Positions 368 to 35,127 of a stretch of DNA of 35,798 bases are shown one piece after another. The first letter of the stretch is position 1, and each line of letters begins with the position of its first letter. The notes beneath the pieces were generated by a model, which searched no databases, had not been told where the DNA came from, and saw nothing but the letters and a program-made list of their open reading frames with translations. The DNA lies in contig PLYL01000012.1 of the NCBI GenBank assembly GCA_003151795.1, positions 1-35,798 on the forward strand, read 5' to 3'. The stretch comes from Candidatus Yanofskyibacteriota bacterium. Its GTDB lineage: Bacteria > Patescibacteriota > Minisyncoccia > 2-02-FULL-40-12 > GWA2-44-9. Both the position numbers and the translations under genes were made by a program.

Positions 368-465
368 ATTGCGTCCTCACCTGCGGGACTTGGATTCGAA
401 CCAAGATACTGGGCTTCAAAGGCCCATGTCCTACCATTAGACGATCCCGCAGGTGAGGACGCAAT
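368..465. repeat. inverted repeat enclosing tRNA-Gln
   Basis: The 14 bases at 368-381 (ATTGCGTCCTCACC) are perfectly complementary to 452-465. They continue directly into the 7-bp acceptor stem of the enclosed tRNA-Gln, giving a 21-bp uninterrupted helix that includes the discriminator base. The arms share GCGTCCT with the 47-bp direct repeats on either side. Confidence 0.9.
381..451 (-). tRNA. tRNA-Gln (anticodon UUG)
   Basis: This is a complete cloverleaf of 71 nt including the discriminator. The acceptor stem is TGCGGGA/TCCCGCA, the D-stem GTCT/GGAC with loop AATGGTA, the anticodon stem TGGGC/GCCCA around loop CTTTGAA, a 4-nt variable region, and the T-stem CTTGG/CCAAG around TTCGAAT. The anticodon TTG decodes CAA. 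CCA is not encoded; the discriminator is G. The acceptor helix extends 14 bp further through flanking inverted repeats, which is unusual. The gene lies between two direct repeats that sit in a split, degenerate second tRNA-Gln. Confidence 0.95.
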
Positions 466-472
466 GACTATC

Positions 473-718
473 TCAAAGTTTTCCTATAATTTTCCTGAAT
501 TCATTACCGCCTTTTAATTTCTTCAAATAATTCTCCCTTTTTATGGCTTCGCCTCGCGTATCGAAAATCTCTTCTTTTATAACAATCAATGGCATCCTGC
601 TTTTTGTAGATTTTACTTGCCCTTTGTTATGCTTCTCTAGTCTGCTACTTAAATTATAAGTTTGACCGATATAGTAACCGCTATCTTTTAGACTCTTCAG
701 AATATAAACGGAATACAT
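473..718 (-). CDS. GIY-YIG domain nuclease, UPF0213/YhbQ-like, 81 aa
   Basis: This is a single-domain GIY-YIG protein. The N-terminus MYSVYILKSLKDSGYYIGQT carries the two short Tyr/Ile/Gly strands that name the fold; a conserved Arg (SRLEKHN) and the Glu in the REN segment follow, as expected for the active site. Stand-alone members of this size are common, and their substrate is mostly unknown. The gene is AT-rich compared with its neighbours. Its upstream region, including an AGGA that could serve as ribosome binding site, lies in the 47-bp repeat at 724-770. It sits with an intact tRNA-Gln between two direct repeats, which suggests a mobile cassette; that is inference. Confidence 0.85.
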   Translation of the reverse strand: MYSVYILKSLKDSGYYIGQTYNLSSRLEKHNKGQVKSTKSRMPLIVIKEEIFDTRGEAIKRENYLKKLKGGNEFRKIIGKL

Positions 719-6040: not shown

Positions 6041-6448
6041 TTATTTTACAACTTCCATCCGCTTCTGTTCGACCAGCATTTGATAAAGACTGCCCGTCAG
6101 AGCGCTATGAAACGCGTCAATCAAGGCGATGTCGTTGGAATCTCGGGCGGCTTTAATCCCATCAGCCAACGATTTGGCGAACGCGAGGCTGACCCAAGCT
6201 TGAACTTTGGTTTGAGCGTCGGGCGGCAAAGAATCATCGGTCGTGGTCGTGTGCGACGAAGCCTGAAACGCGGGCACGTGCTGTTGAATCGCCCCCTCGA
6301 CGACTTGCGAAAGCGTCTCCTGTTCCGTCGGCGCCGGCGCCTGCTCGGCCGTTTCGCCTTGGCCTTTCATCTGCTGTTCAATCTCCGCCCGCTTCCGCTG
6401 GTATTCCCTCTCCACTTGCTGTAATTGTTCGGCCGGAGTTCCTTCCAT
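6041..6448 (-). CDS. small helical protein of unknown family, 135 aa
   Basis: I do not recognise this protein. It is hydrophilic and helical: a coiled-coil-prone start (EQLQQVEREYQRKRAEIEQQ), a Pro/Thr/Gln-rich middle, and an amphipathic C-terminal part. The ORF is open further upstream, but ATG 6448 is preferred because the sequence before it is one arm of an inverted repeat also found in front of greA, where the true GreA start sits at the same place in the arm. It ends 5 nt before the TraD-like ATPase gene, so the products may act together. Confidence 0.75.
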   Translation of the reverse strand: MEGTPAEQLQQVEREYQRKRAEIEQQMKGQGETAEQAPAPTEQETLSQVVEGAIQQHVPAFQASSHTTTTDDSLPPDAQTKVQAWVSLAFAKSLADGIKAARDSNDIALIDAFHSALTGSLYQMLVEQKRMEVVK

Positions 6449-6582
6449 CCCGCACATAACGAGCACCAACTGCCTAGGCAATACGATTTATGTATTATCC
6501 AAGATTATCAGTGCTGTACGATTAATTTTATTCATATAATTAGTGACGCAATAGTATTGCAAGTGCTCGTTATGTGCGGGAT
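6447..6582. repeat. start-codon inverted repeat, family A
   Basis: ATCCCGCACATAACGAGCAC (6447-6466) is perfectly repeated in inverse at 6563-6582, with 96 nt between. The low-coordinate arm includes two bases of the ATG of the 135-aa gene; the other arm begins 4 nt after the stop of the 114-aa gene. The same arms recur at 18496-18632 in front of greA (one mismatch), but the interiors are unlike. Additional pairing exists inside (GCAATAC on both sides, and a TGCCTAGGCA mini-palindrome). Confidence 0.9.
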
Positions 6583-6586
6583 TCCA

Positions 6587-6931
6587 TTATGATTGGGTCG
6601 GTGTTTCATCTTTAGGCGGAGCACTAGACGTTACGGGATGATCTTTTAATTTCTCAAACAATTCATCGGTCATGGCGGACGCCGTTTTCTGCTGCTCTTC
6701 TTCCAGTTTCGCCCAGCGCGCATTTTGCTGTTTCAAAAAAAGTTCGATGTCATAGACCACGGCATCGAGTTGGTCTCGCTCTTTATCTAGGGTGTCTTTA
6801 AGCCTGAAAATTAAATCTTCAGGCAAAGTGTCTAAATTTTCCAGAATCACGTCTTTAATCCGCGGGTCCAACGACGACTCCGCGAGCATCACTCCGATTT
6901 CTTCCGCTAATTTTTCAATATCGTGTGTCAT
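6587..6931 (-). CDS. small coiled-coil protein of unknown family, 114 aa
   Basis: This is an acidic, helical, soluble protein (MTHDIEKLAEEIGVMLAESS...) with a long amphipathic helix at about residues 40-90 and a Pro/Thr-rich tail. No family is recognised. It starts 11 nt after the stop of the 914-aa gene and is followed by a long inverted repeat and the 135-aa gene. Its position in the operon with a TraD-like ATPase suggests a structural or adaptor role, by context only. Confidence 0.75.
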   Translation of the reverse strand: MTHDIEKLAEEIGVMLAESSLDPRIKDVILENLDTLPEDLIFRLKDTLDKERDQLDAVVYDIELFLKQQNARWAKLEEEQQKTASAMTDELFEKLKDHPVTSSAPPKDETPTQS

Positions 6932-9758: not shown

Positions 9759-9764
9759 GAATCT

Positions 9765-9907
9765 ATGCCAGGTAGTGAAAATCCGACTGGATTGTATCTA
9801 GCGCCGGATTAACCCGATACCAGGCATGCAATATTTACATAGTTAATCTATTTCCGATGTCATCAGATACAATCTGAGGCGCATGTCGGATTTCTACTAC
9901 CTGGTAT
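9765..9907 (+). repeat. start-codon inverted repeat, family B, in the 5' leader
   Basis: The arm 9765-9787 (ATGCCAGGTAGTGAAAATCC then GAC) pairs with 9885-9907, which ends in the AT of the ATG at 9906. A second nested pairing is GATTGTATCT (9790-9799) with AGATACAATC further in. The ends CCAGGTAGT...AA recur in the mreB element at 23075-23142, but the inner stem differs (ATCCGAC here, GTTGCTG there) and is self-complementary in each. A 15-codon frame opens at 9765 (MPGSENPTGLYLAPD). Confidence 0.85.
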
Positions 9908-11435
9908 GCAAAGACACCCTCGCGGAGAGATCTGGATTGTTATCGGTATTCTTCTGATTGCGTCGTTCTTCCGATTCTATCAACTTGCAAAATATCCCCC
10001 CGGCCTCTATCCTGACGAGGCTATGGATGGTTCCAACGCGCTCATCACCAACGCGACGGGACACTATCAACTTTTCTATACTGAAAACAATGGCCGTGAA
10101 GGACTCTATATTAATCTTCAGGCCTTGTCGGTAAAATTATCCGGTATCCATGCGTGGGCTCTCCGCGATGTCTCGGGGATATTCGGCGTACTCACCGTGC
10201 TTGGATTGTATCTCTTGGCGCGCGAGCTGTTTGATTGGCGCGCCGCCGGAGTCTCAAGCTTCCTTTTGGCAATTTCGTTTTGGCACGTCAATTTTTCCCG
10301 CATCGGCTTTGACGGCATCATGGTGCCGTTTATTCTGGTCTATCTATTTTATTTCCTCTGGCGAGGGCTCCGGCGCAACACCTATCTTGATTTTTTATGG
10401 GCAGGCCTTTTTACCGGCCTTGGATTTTATGCCTACAGCGCGTATCGAGTGGCCCCCCTGATTATTGTAGCGGTCTTCGGCGCGTATTGGTGGTTTTTGA
10501 AAAAGGATTTCAGCCATGAAAAATACGAACATGCCCGCAACCGTCTCCTGGGTGGTTTCTGTGTCCTTGCCATCACGGCATTCTTCGTGGCCCTGCCGAT
10601 GGGAGTGTATTTCTTGCGCAATCCTGCACAGCTCACCCAGCGCACGAATGAAGTCTCGGTACTTCAGCAAGCTAACCCATTGCTCCAGCTCGCCAACAGC
10701 ACCGCCCGCACGCTGGGCATGTTTACCTTCAACGGCGACATGAATCAGCGAGACAATATCGCTGGCCAACCCGAACTCGGCTGGCCCATTGCAATTTTGT
10801 TCGCGATTGGATTTTTGAAAGAGCTGTACCATTGGTTGCGGCGCAAACACGGCCATTTTTCGCCCGTCCATACGCTGATGTTCGCGTGGTTTTTTGTGAT
10901 GCTGCTACCGGGTTTTCTCTCAACCGAAGCCCCGCACGCTTTGCGGACTATTGGCGTGCTCCCCATCGTGATGATTTTCGCCGCCCGAGGATTCCTGTGG
11001 CTATTCAACGCCGGCGAGGAATGGGAAATGATTACTCATCCCTGGGAGTCCGCCAGCCGGCGGAGTGGCCATGACCAATTCGTCGCGCCAGTTTTGGCCG
11101 CCCTCGCGCTCATGATTGCCCTTGGATTTTATGAATACCATCGCTACTTCGATGTTTGGGCGCCAAGCCAAGCGACCGCCGCGGCCTTCACCGCCAATTA
11201 TGTCGATATTGCCAACCAAATCAACGCCTTGCCGGCAAGTAAAAAGAAATACGTGATTATAGACGCTCCGGCCATCGAAGCGTATGGTCTGCCCGTGTCG
11301 GCGGAAACGGTTATGTTTTTAACGGACACGGTCACAGCAGAAACCCAGCATGCTAAAAACCTAACCTATCTGACCGCCGACCAAGCGATGGGATACCATT
11401 TCAGCTCTAACGCCAGCGTCTGGCACGTTAGATAA
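9906..11435 (+). CDS. GT-C fold membrane glycosyltransferase (ArnT/PMT-like), 509 aa
   Basis: This is a polytopic membrane protein with about ten or more hydrophobic segments. The first periplasmic loop holds PPGLYPDEAMDGSNALIT, the acidic motif typical of GT-C (family 39-like) enzymes that use polyprenyl-phosphate sugars on the outer face of the membrane. The last 120 or so residues form a soluble region. Start ATG 9906 lies at the end of an inverted-repeat arm, with no Shine-Dalgarno. The next GT-C gene begins 8 nt after its stop, so the two are one operon. The acceptor is unknown. Confidence 0.8.
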   Translation: MQRHPRGEIWIVIGILLIASFFRFYQLAKYPPGLYPDEAMDGSNALITNATGHYQLFYTENNGREGLYINLQALSVKLSGIHAWALRDVSGIFGVLTVLGLYLLARELFDWRAAGVSSFLLAISFWHVNFSRIGFDGIMVPFILVYLFYFLWRGLRRNTYLDFLWAGLFTGLGFYAYSAYRVAPLIIVAVFGAYWWFLKKDFSHEKYEHARNRLLGGFCVLAITAFFVALPMGVYFLRNPAQLTQRTNEVSVLQQANPLLQLANSTARTLGMFTFNGDMNQRDNIAGQPELGWPIAILFAIGFLKELYHWLRRKHGHFSPVHTLMFAWFFVMLLPGFLSTEAPHALRTIGVLPIVMIFAARGFLWLFNAGEEWEMITHPWESASRRSGHDQFVAPVLAALALMIALGFYEYHRYFDVWAPSQATAAAFTANYVDIANQINALPASKKKYVIIDAPAIEAYGLPVSAETVMFLTDTVTAETQHAKNLTYLTADQAMGYHFSSNASVWHVR

Positions 11436-13855: not shown

Positions 13856-13899
13856 TTATTATCATATAAGTATATTCGAATATATTTATATGATAATAA
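13856..13899. repeat. 44-bp AT-rich near-perfect palindrome
   Basis: TTATTATCATATAA... pairs across a CG centre at 13877/13878 with one mismatch in 22 bp. It lies just after the ftsQ-like stop and before the ncRNA promoter. No T-run follows on either strand, so it is not a standard terminator. Confidence 0.9.
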
Positions 13900-18035: not shown

Positions 18036-18497
18036 CTATTTAACTTCGAGTATCTTGTACTGCTCGACGCCACGCGGGGTGCGGACTTCGACGGTGTCGC
18101 CTTTTTTGTGGCCGAGGAAGACTTTGCCGAGAGGAGATTCGTTGGAAATGAATCCGGCGGACGGATTGGATTCGGTCACGCCGACGATGACGAACTGCTT
18201 CGGACCTTTGCCGGCATCGGCCTTGACCGTCGAGCCGACCACGACCACGCCGCCGGATTTCGCGCCGTCAGCGATGACCACGGCATTTTCGAGGATTTGG
18301 CGGATTTCTTCAATCCGGCCTTCGTTGATGGACTGGGCTTCTTTGGCGGCGTCGAATTCGGCATTCTCGGACAAGTCGCCCTGCTCTTTGGCTTCTTTGA
18401 TGCGGTGAGCTATTTCCGGGCGCTTAATGTCGGTCCGTTCCGAGAGTTCGTTCTTGAGCTTCTCTAGGCCTTCCTTGCTAAAATATTGGTTCTGCAT
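18036..18497 (-). CDS. greA: transcription elongation factor GreA
   Basis: GreA enters the RNA polymerase secondary channel and triggers cleavage of backtracked RNA. At 153 aa it is normal length: an N-terminal coiled coil with the acidic tip GDLSENAEFDAAKEAQ (catalytic Asp/Glu near 41-44) and a C-terminal FKBP-like domain (VVVGSTVKADAG, SPLGKVFLGHKKGDTVEV). The start is ATG 18497 (MQNQYFSKEGLEKL), as in other GreA proteins; the longer frame upstream is an inverted-repeat arm. There is no Shine-Dalgarno sequence; the start codon lies in the 3' arm of a 137-bp hairpin. Confidence 0.95.
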   Translation of the reverse strand: MQNQYFSKEGLEKLKNELSERTDIKRPEIAHRIKEAKEQGDLSENAEFDAAKEAQSINEGRIEEIRQILENAVVIADGAKSGGVVVVGSTVKADAGKGPKQFVIVGVTESNPSAGFISNESPLGKVFLGHKKGDTVEVRTPRGVEQYKILEVK

Positions 18498-18632
18498 CCC
18501 GCACATAACGAGCACCGGGCTTGCTGTCTCGCTAAATGTATAGCTAGGTACAGTGTCCAATACTCACTAAATTATTATATTAAATCTTGATTCGCCATCA
18601 CACCAGAGACATGTGTTCGTTATGTGCGGGAT
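18496..18632. repeat. start-codon inverted repeat, family A, greA leader
   Basis: ATCCCGCACATAACGAGCAC (18496-18515) pairs with 18613-18632 with one mismatch, with 97 nt between. The arms are the same as at 6447-6582. The arm next to greA contains the AT of its start codon. Since the likely promoter is at 18656-18661, both arms would be in the greA mRNA and could hide the start codon. Confidence 0.9.
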
Positions 18633-24801: not shown

Positions 24802-24881
24802 ACCTTAATTATTCAAAAAACTCTTTCATTTCGTCAACCATCTCCTGTGTTTAACTTTTAAACACTTCTACCTTGTTAACT

Positions 24882-24917
24882 GCTTTAAAATAGTAACAAT
24901 TGGTAACTTTTTAAAGC
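24882..24917. repeat. palindrome downstream of the PaaX/Cas2-like gene
   Basis: GCTTTAAAATAGTAACAA and TTGGTAACTTTTTAAAGC form an imperfect palindrome (14 of 18 pairs). Its first half matches 16 of 18 bases of the palindrome upstream of the same gene (25441-25492). It ends 2 bp before the stop codon at 24920. Confidence 0.75.
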
Positions 24918-24919
24918 AA

Positions 24920-25432
24920 CTAAAGTTCAAAGTGTTTTTTGACTTCTGATTCTTTTGAACCAAGATGTTCTGTGACCAACACATCAACATGGTCAATTAG
25001 ATCAAGTTCTTGACACCAATCGCCGATTTCTTTCTCACAAGGGTATGGAAAAACAAACACACTCTTCTGAATCATATAACAACCTATATATTTTAATTTT
25101 CTTCTAAACGCTTGGCGTTGTTTTTCCATGTTCGAAGGAATGTCAAAAAGTATGAGCCGCCATTTTTTATCCCAAGGACCATGACGAAATCTAAAATATT
25201 TATACTGTGCACGAGTAAGCCACGATTTTCCTTTATCAGTAAACAGGTAGTGCCCGTCTTTTAATCTAATTACACCCCGAACCTCCAAATTTTTAAGACC
25301 GTTATAAATCGCCCTACTGCCTAACGGAGATTTATACAATGACTGATAAACACCCTTGGGTCTAAAAGGGGCATTTTTATGAATGGACTCTAAAAAATCA
25401 ACGAAAAAATGTATAAAATTTTTATTTGTCAT
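24920..25432 (-). CDS. PaaX-like regulator with Cas2-like domain, 170 aa
   Basis: The N-terminal 75 or so residues look like a winged helix (GVYQSLYKSPLGSRAIYNGL, VRGVIRLKDGHYLFTDKGK). The C-terminal 95 are Cas2-like: WRLILFDIPSNMEKQRQAF, then GCYMIQKSVFVFPYPCEKEI, with Asp at the place of the Cas2 metal-binding residue. This combination is that of PaaX-type repressors; CPR versions are often labelled Cas2, but no CRISPR array or cas1 is nearby. AGGG 6 nt before ATG 25432 supports the start. It is bracketed by two related palindromes, suggesting autoregulation or mobility. AT-rich like proS and unlike the other neighbours. Confidence 0.75.
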   Translation of the reverse strand: MTNKNFIHFFVDFLESIHKNAPFRPKGVYQSLYKSPLGSRAIYNGLKNLEVRGVIRLKDGHYLFTDKGKSWLTRAQYKYFRFRHGPWDKKWRLILFDIPSNMEKQRQAFRRKLKYIGCYMIQKSVFVFPYPCEKEIGDWCQELDLIDHVDVLVTEHLGSKESEVKKHFEL

Positions 25433-25440
25433 ATATCCCT

Positions 25441-25492
25441 AACTCTCTGCTTTATAATAGTACCAATTGGTACTATTATAAAGCAGAGAGTT
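25441..25492. repeat. 52-bp perfect palindrome upstream of the PaaX/Cas2-like gene
   Basis: AACTCTCTGCTTTATAATAG... is perfectly self-complementary about 25466/25467, with a GTACCAATTGGTAC core. It spans from the last base of the proS stop codon to 8 bp before the regulator ATG. Each half contains TATAAT, so it can be promoter and operator in one, or a terminator-like hairpin. Confidence 0.95.
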
Positions 25493-26757
25493 TATTTTAA
25501 TTCTTCTAATAGATTATCCTTTTTGATGATTCGGGCTTCTTTTTCTGTTCGTCTCTTAATTTCTATCTCATCAGAATCCATACGACCACTAATAACTAGT
25601 CTGCAAGGGCAGCCGAGCAGGTCAGCATCGGCAAACTTTTCTCCGGCAGATTTATCTTCGCGATCGTCATAAATAACCTCAACACCAGAGGCGGTCAATT
25701 CTTCATAGACACCCTCGGCTTCAGAGTTTTTTCCGATAGAAATAAGGTGGGCTTTGAAAGGCGCGATTTCTTCAGGCCAAATAATACCTTTATCGTCATG
25801 AGACACCTCAACAACCGTGCCCATCAGCCGACTAAGTCCAATGCCATATGAGCCCATAAAGACCAGCTTTTTAGCTCTATCCTCGTCAATAAAATTTAAA
25901 TTAAACGGTTCTGAAAATCTCGTTCCAAGAGTAAAGATATTACCGACCTCAATTGCTTTTTTTTCTTCAAAATCTTCCCCCAGGCCCAAATCTTTTTTAA
26001 TGTCCTCGGTAAAGATTTCCTTGTTTATGGCAGCGCGTCCTTCTTTCATTTTTAATCCTTCGCCATAATCATTTTTAGAAATATAAATAATGTCTTCTCC
26101 TGAATCACAAAGAGTCTGGAACTCATGAGAAAATTTTGAAAACGTTCCGCCGGACGCAAAAGTCAAATAGGTTTTTTCTCCAATACCAACTCGGTTAAAA
26201 ATATTTTTGTATGCTTTAATGGCTTCTTTTTGGTAGAAGTTATTATGTTCATTTTCGTTTTTAGAAAATGAATACATGGCTTTCCAATAAAATTCCCTCC
26301 CTCTCAAAATACCAGATTTGCTTCTGGTTTCATTTCTGAAAATTTCTTTAAAGTCATACAAATACATCGGCAGGTCTTTGTATGAACTCACATATTGCTT
26401 CAGAATATTTGAATAAGATTCCTCGTTGGTAAATGACAAGCCAGCTTCGCCGCCATTCTTGAGTTCTGTCTTGAACCAACTGTCTACCACTTCATCGCTC
26501 CATCTATTTGATTTTTCCCACACTTCTTTGTTTTGAAGCACGGATGTCTTCATTTCTATACCTCCAATTTTATTCATTTCTTCTCTAATTATATCTTCAA
26601 TCTTCTTTATGACCCTTAAGCCAAGAGGAAGATATGAATACACTCCCGCCATCTCTTTGTAAACAAAACCCCCACGAATAAGGTATTGAGCATTAATTGC
26701 CGCCTCTTCCGCTGGGGCGTTCTTTAATGTTCTGGTGAATAATTGAGTAAATTTCAT
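25492..26757 (-). CDS. proS: proline--tRNA ligase (short type)
   Basis: This is class II ProRS. 421 aa, lacking the editing insertion of the long bacterial type. Visible: GVYSYLPLGLRVIKKIEDII, motif 2 IFRNETRSKSGILRGREFYW, motif 3 GSYGIGLSRLMGTVVE, and the anticodon-binding domain with VIYDDREDKSAGEKFADADL and GCPCRLVISGR. It begins 1 nt after the rseP stop and is therefore in that operon, but its DNA is much more AT-rich (sampled lines 25-42% GC, against about 65% in a sampled rseP line), which suggests replacement by transfer. Confidence 0.96.
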   Translation of the reverse strand: MKFTQLFTRTLKNAPAEEAAINAQYLIRGGFVYKEMAGVYSYLPLGLRVIKKIEDIIREEMNKIGGIEMKTSVLQNKEVWEKSNRWSDEVVDSWFKTELKNGGEAGLSFTNEESYSNILKQYVSSYKDLPMYLYDFKEIFRNETRSKSGILRGREFYWKAMYSFSKNENEHNNFYQKEAIKAYKNIFNRVGIGEKTYLTFASGGTFSKFSHEFQTLCDSGEDIIYISKNDYGEGLKMKEGRAAINKEIFTEDIKKDLGLGEDFEEKKAIEVGNIFTLGTRFSEPFNLNFIDEDRAKKLVFMGSYGIGLSRLMGTVVEVSHDDKGIIWPEEIAPFKAHLISIGKNSEAEGVYEELTASGVEVIYDDREDKSAGEKFADADLLGCPCRLVISGRMDSDEIEIKRRTEKEARIIKKDNLLEELK

Positions 26758-33479: not shown

Positions 33480-33498
33480 TCCACAGGGTCGCTCGGCA

Positions 33499-33692
33499 GT
33501 CGCCATTTTCTTCAGGCTTCCGCTCGGGCTAGCTCTATTATTTGTTGATTAATTTTCCTGACCAGCCGAAGCAACTCCTGTCGGGCCATGCGGCTTTCAG
33601 CCGTTCCCGACATCCTCGGGCTGGTACCCATGAAAATAACATCAAAAATACTGAGCTAGCAACCGATTGTGCAGATTGAAGAAAATGGCGAC
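33499..33692. repeat. 194-bp imperfect hairpin
   Basis: Nested pairings share one centre: GTCGCCATTTTCTTCA (33499-33514) with 33677-33692, perfect 16 bp; GCTAGCT (33528-33534) with 33654-33660; ATTTTC-type arms near 33552 and 33632; and TGTCGGG (33579-33585) with 33606-33612. The region lies between two divergent promoters. No gene. Confidence 0.85.
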
Positions 33693-33705
33693 AGCCTCGC
33701 TTGAT

Positions 33706-34136: not shown

Positions 34137-34338
34137 GAAAGCGGGGACTAAGAGATTTTTCACATTCCGACTGACGTCGAATGTCTCTTGCTAAAATTTT
34201 GGAAAGAATGCCAGTAACAAAAAGGAATCCCGAAGCGAAGCGTAGGGAAAGCTGGCGTTTTTGTTCGGTATCTCTGACAAAATTTTAGACAAGAGGACCG
34301 ACGGAAGGAGATGTGAAAAATCTCTTAGCTCCGCTTTC
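34137..34338. repeat. 202-bp imperfect hairpin
   Basis: GAAAGCGGGGACTAAGAGAT and the bases to 34165 pair with 34311-34338 (two or three mismatches). Inside, TCTCTTGCTAAAATTTTG (34184-34201) pairs with 34278-34295, then ACAAAAA with TTTTTGT near 34217 and 34257. The centre contains the 29-bp sequence shared with 18000-18028. The outer arm touches the dedA stop codon. Confidence 0.85.
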
Positions 34339-35012
34339 TATGACAAAAATTTGTCGATGCCGTCTTTTAATAGGTCGCCGAGGTCGCGGAGATGTTCCAT
34401 GGCGGTGAGAGATTGGATGAATTTGGACTTGAAAATCATATTACCGACATAAGCTAAAATAATCGCGCCGGCCAAGAAGAGTGCGATATAAGCGATGTTG
34501 TTCACAAAGGAAACCGCCCGATACCCTTTGCCAAAGACGTAACCGACGGTAAAGGTAATCGCGACCCAGCCGAGGCCGCCGATGAAATTATAGAGTGAGA
34601 ATTTTCTAAAATTGTATTTAAACGAACCGGCCATAATCATGGTGGCGATGGTGAGAGACCAGGTTAATTTGGTGAAGATAATGGCCCGCCCGCTATAACG
34701 CTGGAAATAACGCTCGACAGTCTCGATAACCTTTCGGCTCTTCGGGTCTTTTCGGCCCCATTTATCGATTGGCTTGGCTCCGCCGAAATAGCCGACGGCA
34801 TACCAGCCCCAGCCATTAAAAAAGTCTCCGACAATGCAAATTAAAACTGCCGGAATTATGGCAATAGTGCCGAGAGAGGCCAAAAATCCGGCCAGGATAA
34901 TAGTATTAAAACCTTCGATAAATGTGGCGATGAGCAGGAATAAATACCGGTAATGGACGAGGATGGGGAAATTGTCCTGAAGAGAATCTACAATCGATGA
35001 AAAGAAATGCAT
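34338..35012 (-). CDS. DedA/SNARE-associated-family membrane protein, 224 aa
   Basis: Polytopic protein of the DedA (VTT) type: an early re-entrant/helix region with FIEGFNTIILAGFLASLGTI, then GDFFNGWGWYAVGYFGGAKP, and the conserved FTKLTWSLTIATMIMAGSF where DedA proteins usually have the FxR...R...aG pattern. Members act as polyprenyl-phosphate or phospholipid carriers in some bacteria. Start ATG 35012 (MHFFSSIVDSL), in the arm of an inverted repeat; a longer frame exists but is less likely. Preceded by the UDG gene. Confidence 0.75.
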   Translation of the reverse strand: MHFFSSIVDSLQDNFPILVHYRYLFLLIATFIEGFNTIILAGFLASLGTIAIIPAVLICIVGDFFNGWGWYAVGYFGGAKPIDKWGRKDPKSRKVIETVERYFQRYSGRAIIFTKLTWSLTIATMIMAGSFKYNFRKFSLYNFIGGLGWVAITFTVGYVFGKGYRAVSFVNNIAYIALFLAGAIILAYVGNMIFKSKFIQSLTAMEHLRDLGDLLKDGIDKFLS

Positions 35013-35127
35013 CCCGTCAGAAGCAATGCAAACCCTCCATCGTATTGAGACGACGGAAAGTAGCACAGATGTTAACTATTGTTTTTATGTTCGCGGACCC
35101 GCTAGGGTTGCTTCGTACGGGATGCAT
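35007..35127. repeat. start-codon inverted repeat between udg and dedA
   Basis: ATGCATCCCGT (35007-35017) pairs perfectly with 35117-35127, then AAGCAA with TTGCTT and a further AACCC/GGGTT. One arm holds the dedA ATG; the other begins 1 nt after the UDG stop. Ends match the mreC-mreD element (ATCCCGT, two-base mismatch, GAA). A 36-codon frame runs across it from 35127 and stops 4 nt before the dedA ATG. Confidence 0.85.

Follow-up and report, generated by a model that had tools for sequence, protein, structure and literature searches.

The inverted repeats preceding two genes in the 35,798-nt stretch of Candidatus Yanofskyibacteriota DNA analysed here (the window; contig PLYL01000012.1) are probably miniature mobile elements that insert at start codons and would be driven by a GIY-YIG nuclease through the mechanism proposed below. 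The elements form a dispersed family with common ends, and a rare longer copy carries the nuclease gene within these ends.

Two copies in the window and the family they belong to

The two window copies and their genes are listed below, with a slash marking the element boundary.

6447..6582, minus strand: copy 1, subfamily A, a 20-bp inverted repeat with terminal AT..AT; the sense strand is the minus strand
6449-6580: conserved core of copy 1, sequence CCC...GGG
6446..6448, minus strand: ATG start codon rebuilt at the end of copy 1, GGG/ATGGAAGG
6041..6448, minus strand: gene downstream of copy 1, 135 aa (MEGTPAEQLQQ...)
6582..6588, minus strand: old start region upstream of copy 1, ATAATGGAA/T
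18496..18632, minus strand: copy 2, subfamily B, core CCC...GGG at 18498-18630, one arm mismatch
18495..18497, minus strand: greA start codon at the end of copy 2, GGG/ATGCAG
18036..18497, minus strand: greA, 153 aa (TIGR01462, E=4e-46)

The 20-bp arms of copy 1 (6447-6466 and 6563-6582) are exactly complementary, while those of copy 2 (18496-18515 and 18613-18632) carry one mismatch (GTGTTCG); by chance, no match to the 20-bp arm is expected in the window. The original prediction had located the arms correctly, but had taken all four to be identical, which the mismatch in the 18496 copy contradicts. Its reading of GGG/ATG at the arm end as a start codon is right for both copies, each of which precedes a minus-strand gene. 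A family search with the 135-aa protein gave no match, and orthologues of its gene are present in G001-G003. The old start region of copy 1 provides a near-perfect target duplication, ATGGA, with one A extra, while copy 2 has lost its left duplication and sister species lack the element upstream of greA. The real ATG is also preceded, in frame, by an ATG TGC GGG within the arm (6449-6457; 18498-18506), so gene finders will prefix MCG to both window proteins; the in-frame ATG TGC GGG ATG of the element arm biases automated gene starts.

The host genome (G000; 0.77 Mb in 25 contigs, 99.6% complete) contains about 25 family copies, compared as stretches around sequence matches, which start with CCCGCACATAA and end with TTATGTGCGGG. 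Most are 136-140 bp long, with others of 31, 57, 66-69 and 293 bp. The two window copies differ in their interiors because they represent different subfamilies. A close match to the 18496 copy lies at C9:14499, and matches to the 6447 copy lie at C11:11653 and C11:22477. The mismatch between the two interiors had been correctly noted, but their description as unrelated was rejected, since comparison of all copies sorts the interiors into homologous subfamilies. To that extent the earlier argument against a simple transposon copy was mistaken, the combination of terminal inverted repeats with multiple dispersed copies of related interior being typical of miniature inverted-repeat elements (MITEs). 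One copy lies inside rnpB (G000:C4:56231-56367; L021/L171), within a hairpin that varies from relative to relative.

The first 11 bases of the arms are nearly fixed among copies. The next 7-9 bases differ among copies and are complementary inside each copy, with 99.4% of cells paired and 43 double changes against 1 one-sided change, and G-U pairs or intermediates are almost missing from these positions. The scarcity of G-U intermediates suggests, from sequence comparison, a constraint on the DNA, or one arm serving as template for the other, and not RNA selection alone; compensated arms of this kind are better explained by DNA-level constraint or by homogenisation than by an RNA switch. Membership of a known RNA family was rejected, as the elements gave no Rfam match at the gathering score and none that was credible at E values up to 1.

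Insertion at start codons

In G000, the end of 15 of the 18 long copies coincides exactly with an ORF's start codon, the exceptions being the rnpB-hairpin copy and two others. The genes behind the 15 include greA and recR, both named by search, and others which, from their protein sequences, we take to be pnp-, mraY-, ssb-, rpmJ-, doxX- and htrA-like. Alignments with sister-species proteins begin mostly at or near residue 1, supporting the assigned starts. A second end family, CCCGTTAGA, is amplified to about 30 copies in the sister genome G002; every one of its 34 long copies examined across G002 and G001 stops at a start codon, as do only 3 of 10 copies of 66-74 bp. A genome-wide check for random placement relative to starts, which the original prediction had called for, thus returned a non-random distribution of the long copies. 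Relative to the downstream gene, the interior likewise keeps one orientation (family 1, 14/14; family 2, 36/37; together 50/51), and where a GIY-YIG copy ends at a start codon, it runs in the same direction as the gene that starts there.

The flanks read ATGRR-T/CCC on the left and GGG/ATGRR on the right, involving a 4-bp target duplication of TGGA, TGAA or TGAG, and in short copies also of TTGA or TCCA. An exact 4-bp duplication is present at 24/62 sites, against a shuffle mean of 7.4 (maximum 14). A 6-bp unit, ATGGAT, was considered and replaced by the 4-bp model, TGRR with a terminal T/A or C/G pair, because the TTGA and TCCA sites fit the latter too. About half the copies have no exact duplication, and many of these directly abut the upstream stop codon (NTAA-T/CCC), which calls for a secondary or alternative route. 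In element-free orthologues the stop-to-start gap can be 20-25 nt, so insertion itself or a later event has removed sequence between stop and element; later deletion removing the decoy upstream ATG is the favoured, though unproven, explanation of the missing duplications. Insertion exactly into stop-start overlaps was rejected as the only route, given the gaps in these orthologues.

Four empty orthologous sites are explained by simple insertion with duplication. The htrA-like gene and the L022 gene are empty in G001, as are the L212 and L219 genes, which are occupied in G002. Insertion also recurs at the same place: the ssb-, recR- and doxX-like genes and one more have a family 1 element in G000 at the very start codon where their G002 or G001 orthologues have one of family 2. 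Gene L210_713 carries family 2 in G002, has an end reading CCTACGGG/ATG in G000 and is empty in G001. The suggestion of a recombining module is borne out by these empty sites in sister species, together with the dispersed, directional insertions and their target duplications.

The position at starts could also arise by survival alone, with insertion at any TGRR-like site and persistence only of those insertions that spare the gene by rebuilding ATG. This explanation, possible though less probable, is consistent with a coding density of 0.91, with the shortness and commonness of the TGRR duplication, and with the occurrence of short copies at non-start TTGA and TCCA sites. The background count, made on one window with our own gene calls, speaks against it: in the start-plus-intergenic space of the window about 26% of ATGRR sites are starts (7 starts versus 20 intergenic), so that some three in four tolerable sites are intergenic non-starts, yet 49/52 long copies of both families together lie at starts. 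The excess over this background is large, and the count favours some active preference of the element for starts over mere survival there. Upstream of 30 window genes, Shine-Dalgarno hits are no more numerous than in shuffles; since the window genes show no such signal, an element can enter directly before AUG without necessarily disrupting a ribosome-binding site.

The original prediction had also raised a hairpin in the mRNA that would mask or expose the start codon, and the elements might accordingly be domesticated 5'UTR regulatory RNAs that control translation and are kept by selection, their dispersal being incidental. Stable folding (z -3.6 to -9.6), arm covariation, sense orientation and position at the AUG would all suit such a role. 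It is nevertheless unlikely, because the downstream genes are functionally unrelated, sister species have no element or a different end family at the same genes, and target duplications, the copy inside rnpB and the near absence of G-U pairs are not what it would lead one to expect.

The GIY-YIG nuclease and the proposed mechanism

The 293-bp copy, located between a dnaB-like gene and recR, encodes only an 84-aa GIY-YIG protein (PF01541, E=3e-13), and the element recurs in G001 at a different gene (L052). The domain match and conserved catalytic-type residues place the protein in the GIY-YIG superfamily, with Y5, Y16, G18, R26 and E62 conserved in 98-100%. Its nearest PDB relatives are the UPF0213 proteins 1zg2/1ywl, and its named database relatives include Patescibacteria. 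Inverted repeats of 12-22 bp flank 19/26 GIY-YIG genes in relatives, compared with 1/520 control segments; overall, 43/66 GIY-YIG genes are flanked by inverted repeats and 23/66 have no detectable one. These terminal repeats fall into many end families, and their similarity tracks that of the protein (Mantel r 0.78, 0/5000 permutations as high; r 0.58 without close pairs, 0/3000 permutations as high).

Mobilisation of the elements as MITEs by an ordinary DDE or HUH transposase encoded elsewhere, with the GIY-YIG gene as a passenger, is improbable. The terminal inverted repeats and 4-bp duplications do look DDE-type, but neither of the two transposase families tested, Y1_Tnp and DDE_Tnp_1, had a match in G000-G002, where controls matched. 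Across several end families, moreover, no ORF other than GIY-YIG was seen between the ends, and its sequence tracks them. Because of the shared ends, the tracking of ends by protein and the absence of Y1_Tnp and DDE_Tnp_1, the GIY-YIG nuclease is the best candidate mobiliser.

In the mechanism we propose, non-autonomous copies (~57-140 bp) and a rare autonomous copy (~290 bp) share near-perfect terminal inverted repeats of ~18-20 bp. Recognition of the inverted repeat by the nuclease, probably in hairpin form, would be followed by a cut beside TGRR in the target, after which joining and repair would duplicate TGRR. Because the element ends in A, this A and the duplicated TGRR would together rebuild A-TGRR, a start codon followed by purines, at the downstream end, which may be the cause of the start-codon precision. 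The asymmetric target would impose a fixed orientation, leaving the element always sense to the following gene, so that a nuclease copy could be co-transcribed with it. Start codons would offer a safe harbour, because with no Shine-Dalgarno signal there is no upstream ribosome-binding site to keep. With age, copies would shed the decoy upstream ATG, in many cases through a deletion that reaches back to the stop codon before it. A point against this mechanism is that known GIY-YIG enzymes act as hydrolytic nucleases, whereas it calls for strand transfer or joining. Mobility at the RNA level, in which a transcribed hairpin inserts at mRNA start codons and is copied back, would give the fixed sense orientation and start-codon precision but is very unlikely, since the element has no reverse transcriptase, the target duplications are DNA-type and an asymmetric DNA target equally gives fixed orientation.

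Related elements, known systems and other repeats

The window contains further features of this kind.

9768..9904, plus strand: element of another end family, CCAGGTAGTGAAAATCCGAC..., with TATG duplication at 9764-9767 and 9905-9908
35013..35121, minus strand: element of another end family, CCCGTACGAAGC.../...GACGGG, with ATGCAT duplication at 35007-35012 and 35122-35127
473..718, minus strand: GIY-YIG ORF, followed directly downstream by a tRNA gene (381-451, minus strand)

The first of these elements ends at the ATG (9906) of a 509-aa ORF, and its ends also flank the GIY-YIG genes L083, L091 and L099; the second ends at the start codon of the gene 34338-35012. No clear terminal repeat was found around the GIY-YIG ORF 473..718, and a 21-bp inverted repeat (368-388/445-465) brackets the neighbouring tRNA gene. 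In other CPR genomes, tRNA-like sequences have at their 5' ends GIY-YIG elements whose termini are of the CCCTCACACC or CCCCCACACC type (L057, L063, L064, L069, L131 and L133; tRNA identity read by eye). It is a balanced call whether all these represent a separate class of transposable elements, with a GIY-YIG protein as sole protein and transposase, that actively targets gene starts (start codons, and tRNA 5' ends in related end families) in Patescibacteria and possibly Bacteroidota.

Several known systems share part of this description. REPINs are short palindromic, non-autonomous elements mobilised by a single-gene partner, the Y1 HUH transposase RAYT; here, by contrast, no Y1_Tnp was found in the three genomes, target duplications are present and start codons are targeted. 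GIY-YIG homing endonucleases and free-standing GIY-YIG genes have the same catalytic domain, PF01541. Homing involves one conserved allelic site per family, whereas the present copies occupy many non-homologous sites at unrelated genes and have short duplications and terminal repeats. Rickettsia palindromic elements insert in frame within coding sequences; they are also ~100-150 bp long, palindromic and found inside RNA genes, and differ from the elements here, which insert at start codons and have a known nuclease-bearing form. They are named in PMC10969869. Correia repeat enclosed elements of Neisseria are likewise ~100-150 bp long and bounded by terminal inverted repeats, are scattered near genes in many copies and form a hairpin in the transcript (PMC10969869, PMC2649163). 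What sets the present elements apart from these and from MITEs is that they insert exactly at start codons, in a single orientation and with TGRR duplication, and that their only partner is a GIY-YIG gene; the MITE review mentions neither GIY-YIG nor start codons. Judged as MITEs, they have the exact 4-bp duplication at the fraction of sites given above, and their partner with shared ends is the GIY-YIG element, the one known DDE family tested, DDE_Tnp_1, having no match.

In CPR rRNA genes, GIY-YIG ORFs occur in insertions matching no intron, alongside many short (<200 bp) ORF-less non-intron insertions (PMC11270868). The GIY-YIG proteins were judged there to be outside homing, and the words inverted repeat, palindrome and hairpin are absent from that paper (PMC11270868). 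Those insertions are in rRNA genes and ours at start codons, but they may be of the same class, and such a class may account for the unexplained short insertions. The literature searched, with bioRxiv and most subscription papers outside it, describes neither start-codon targeting nor any GIY-YIG element bounded by terminal repeats. If confirmed, the mechanism would add GIY-YIG to the enzymes able to drive a DNA transposon, provide a mobile element that solves the problem of a compact genome by entering at the first codon, which it restores, and explain many genes annotated as 'GIY-YIG nuclease family' as well as short unexplained CPR insertions. The small size of the 84-aa enzyme permits its direct study.

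In Flavobacteriaceae and other Bacteroidota, GIY-YIG genes are flanked by CCTGAACTTG(A/T)TTCAGG palindromes (L136, L141, L144-L150 and L152), most of them immediately before a gene whose product begins MKKVLF; these palindromes were not found in the literature searched. The window itself contains a perfect 52-bp palindrome with no spacer (25441-25492; AACTCTCTGCTTTATAATAGTACCAA plus its complement), which ends at the stop of the ORF 25492-26757, and smaller palindromes at 13856-13899 and 24876-24923. Intergenic inverted-repeat blocks at 34148-34328 (181 bp) and 33495-33696 (202 bp) have 18-20-bp arms of other sequence.
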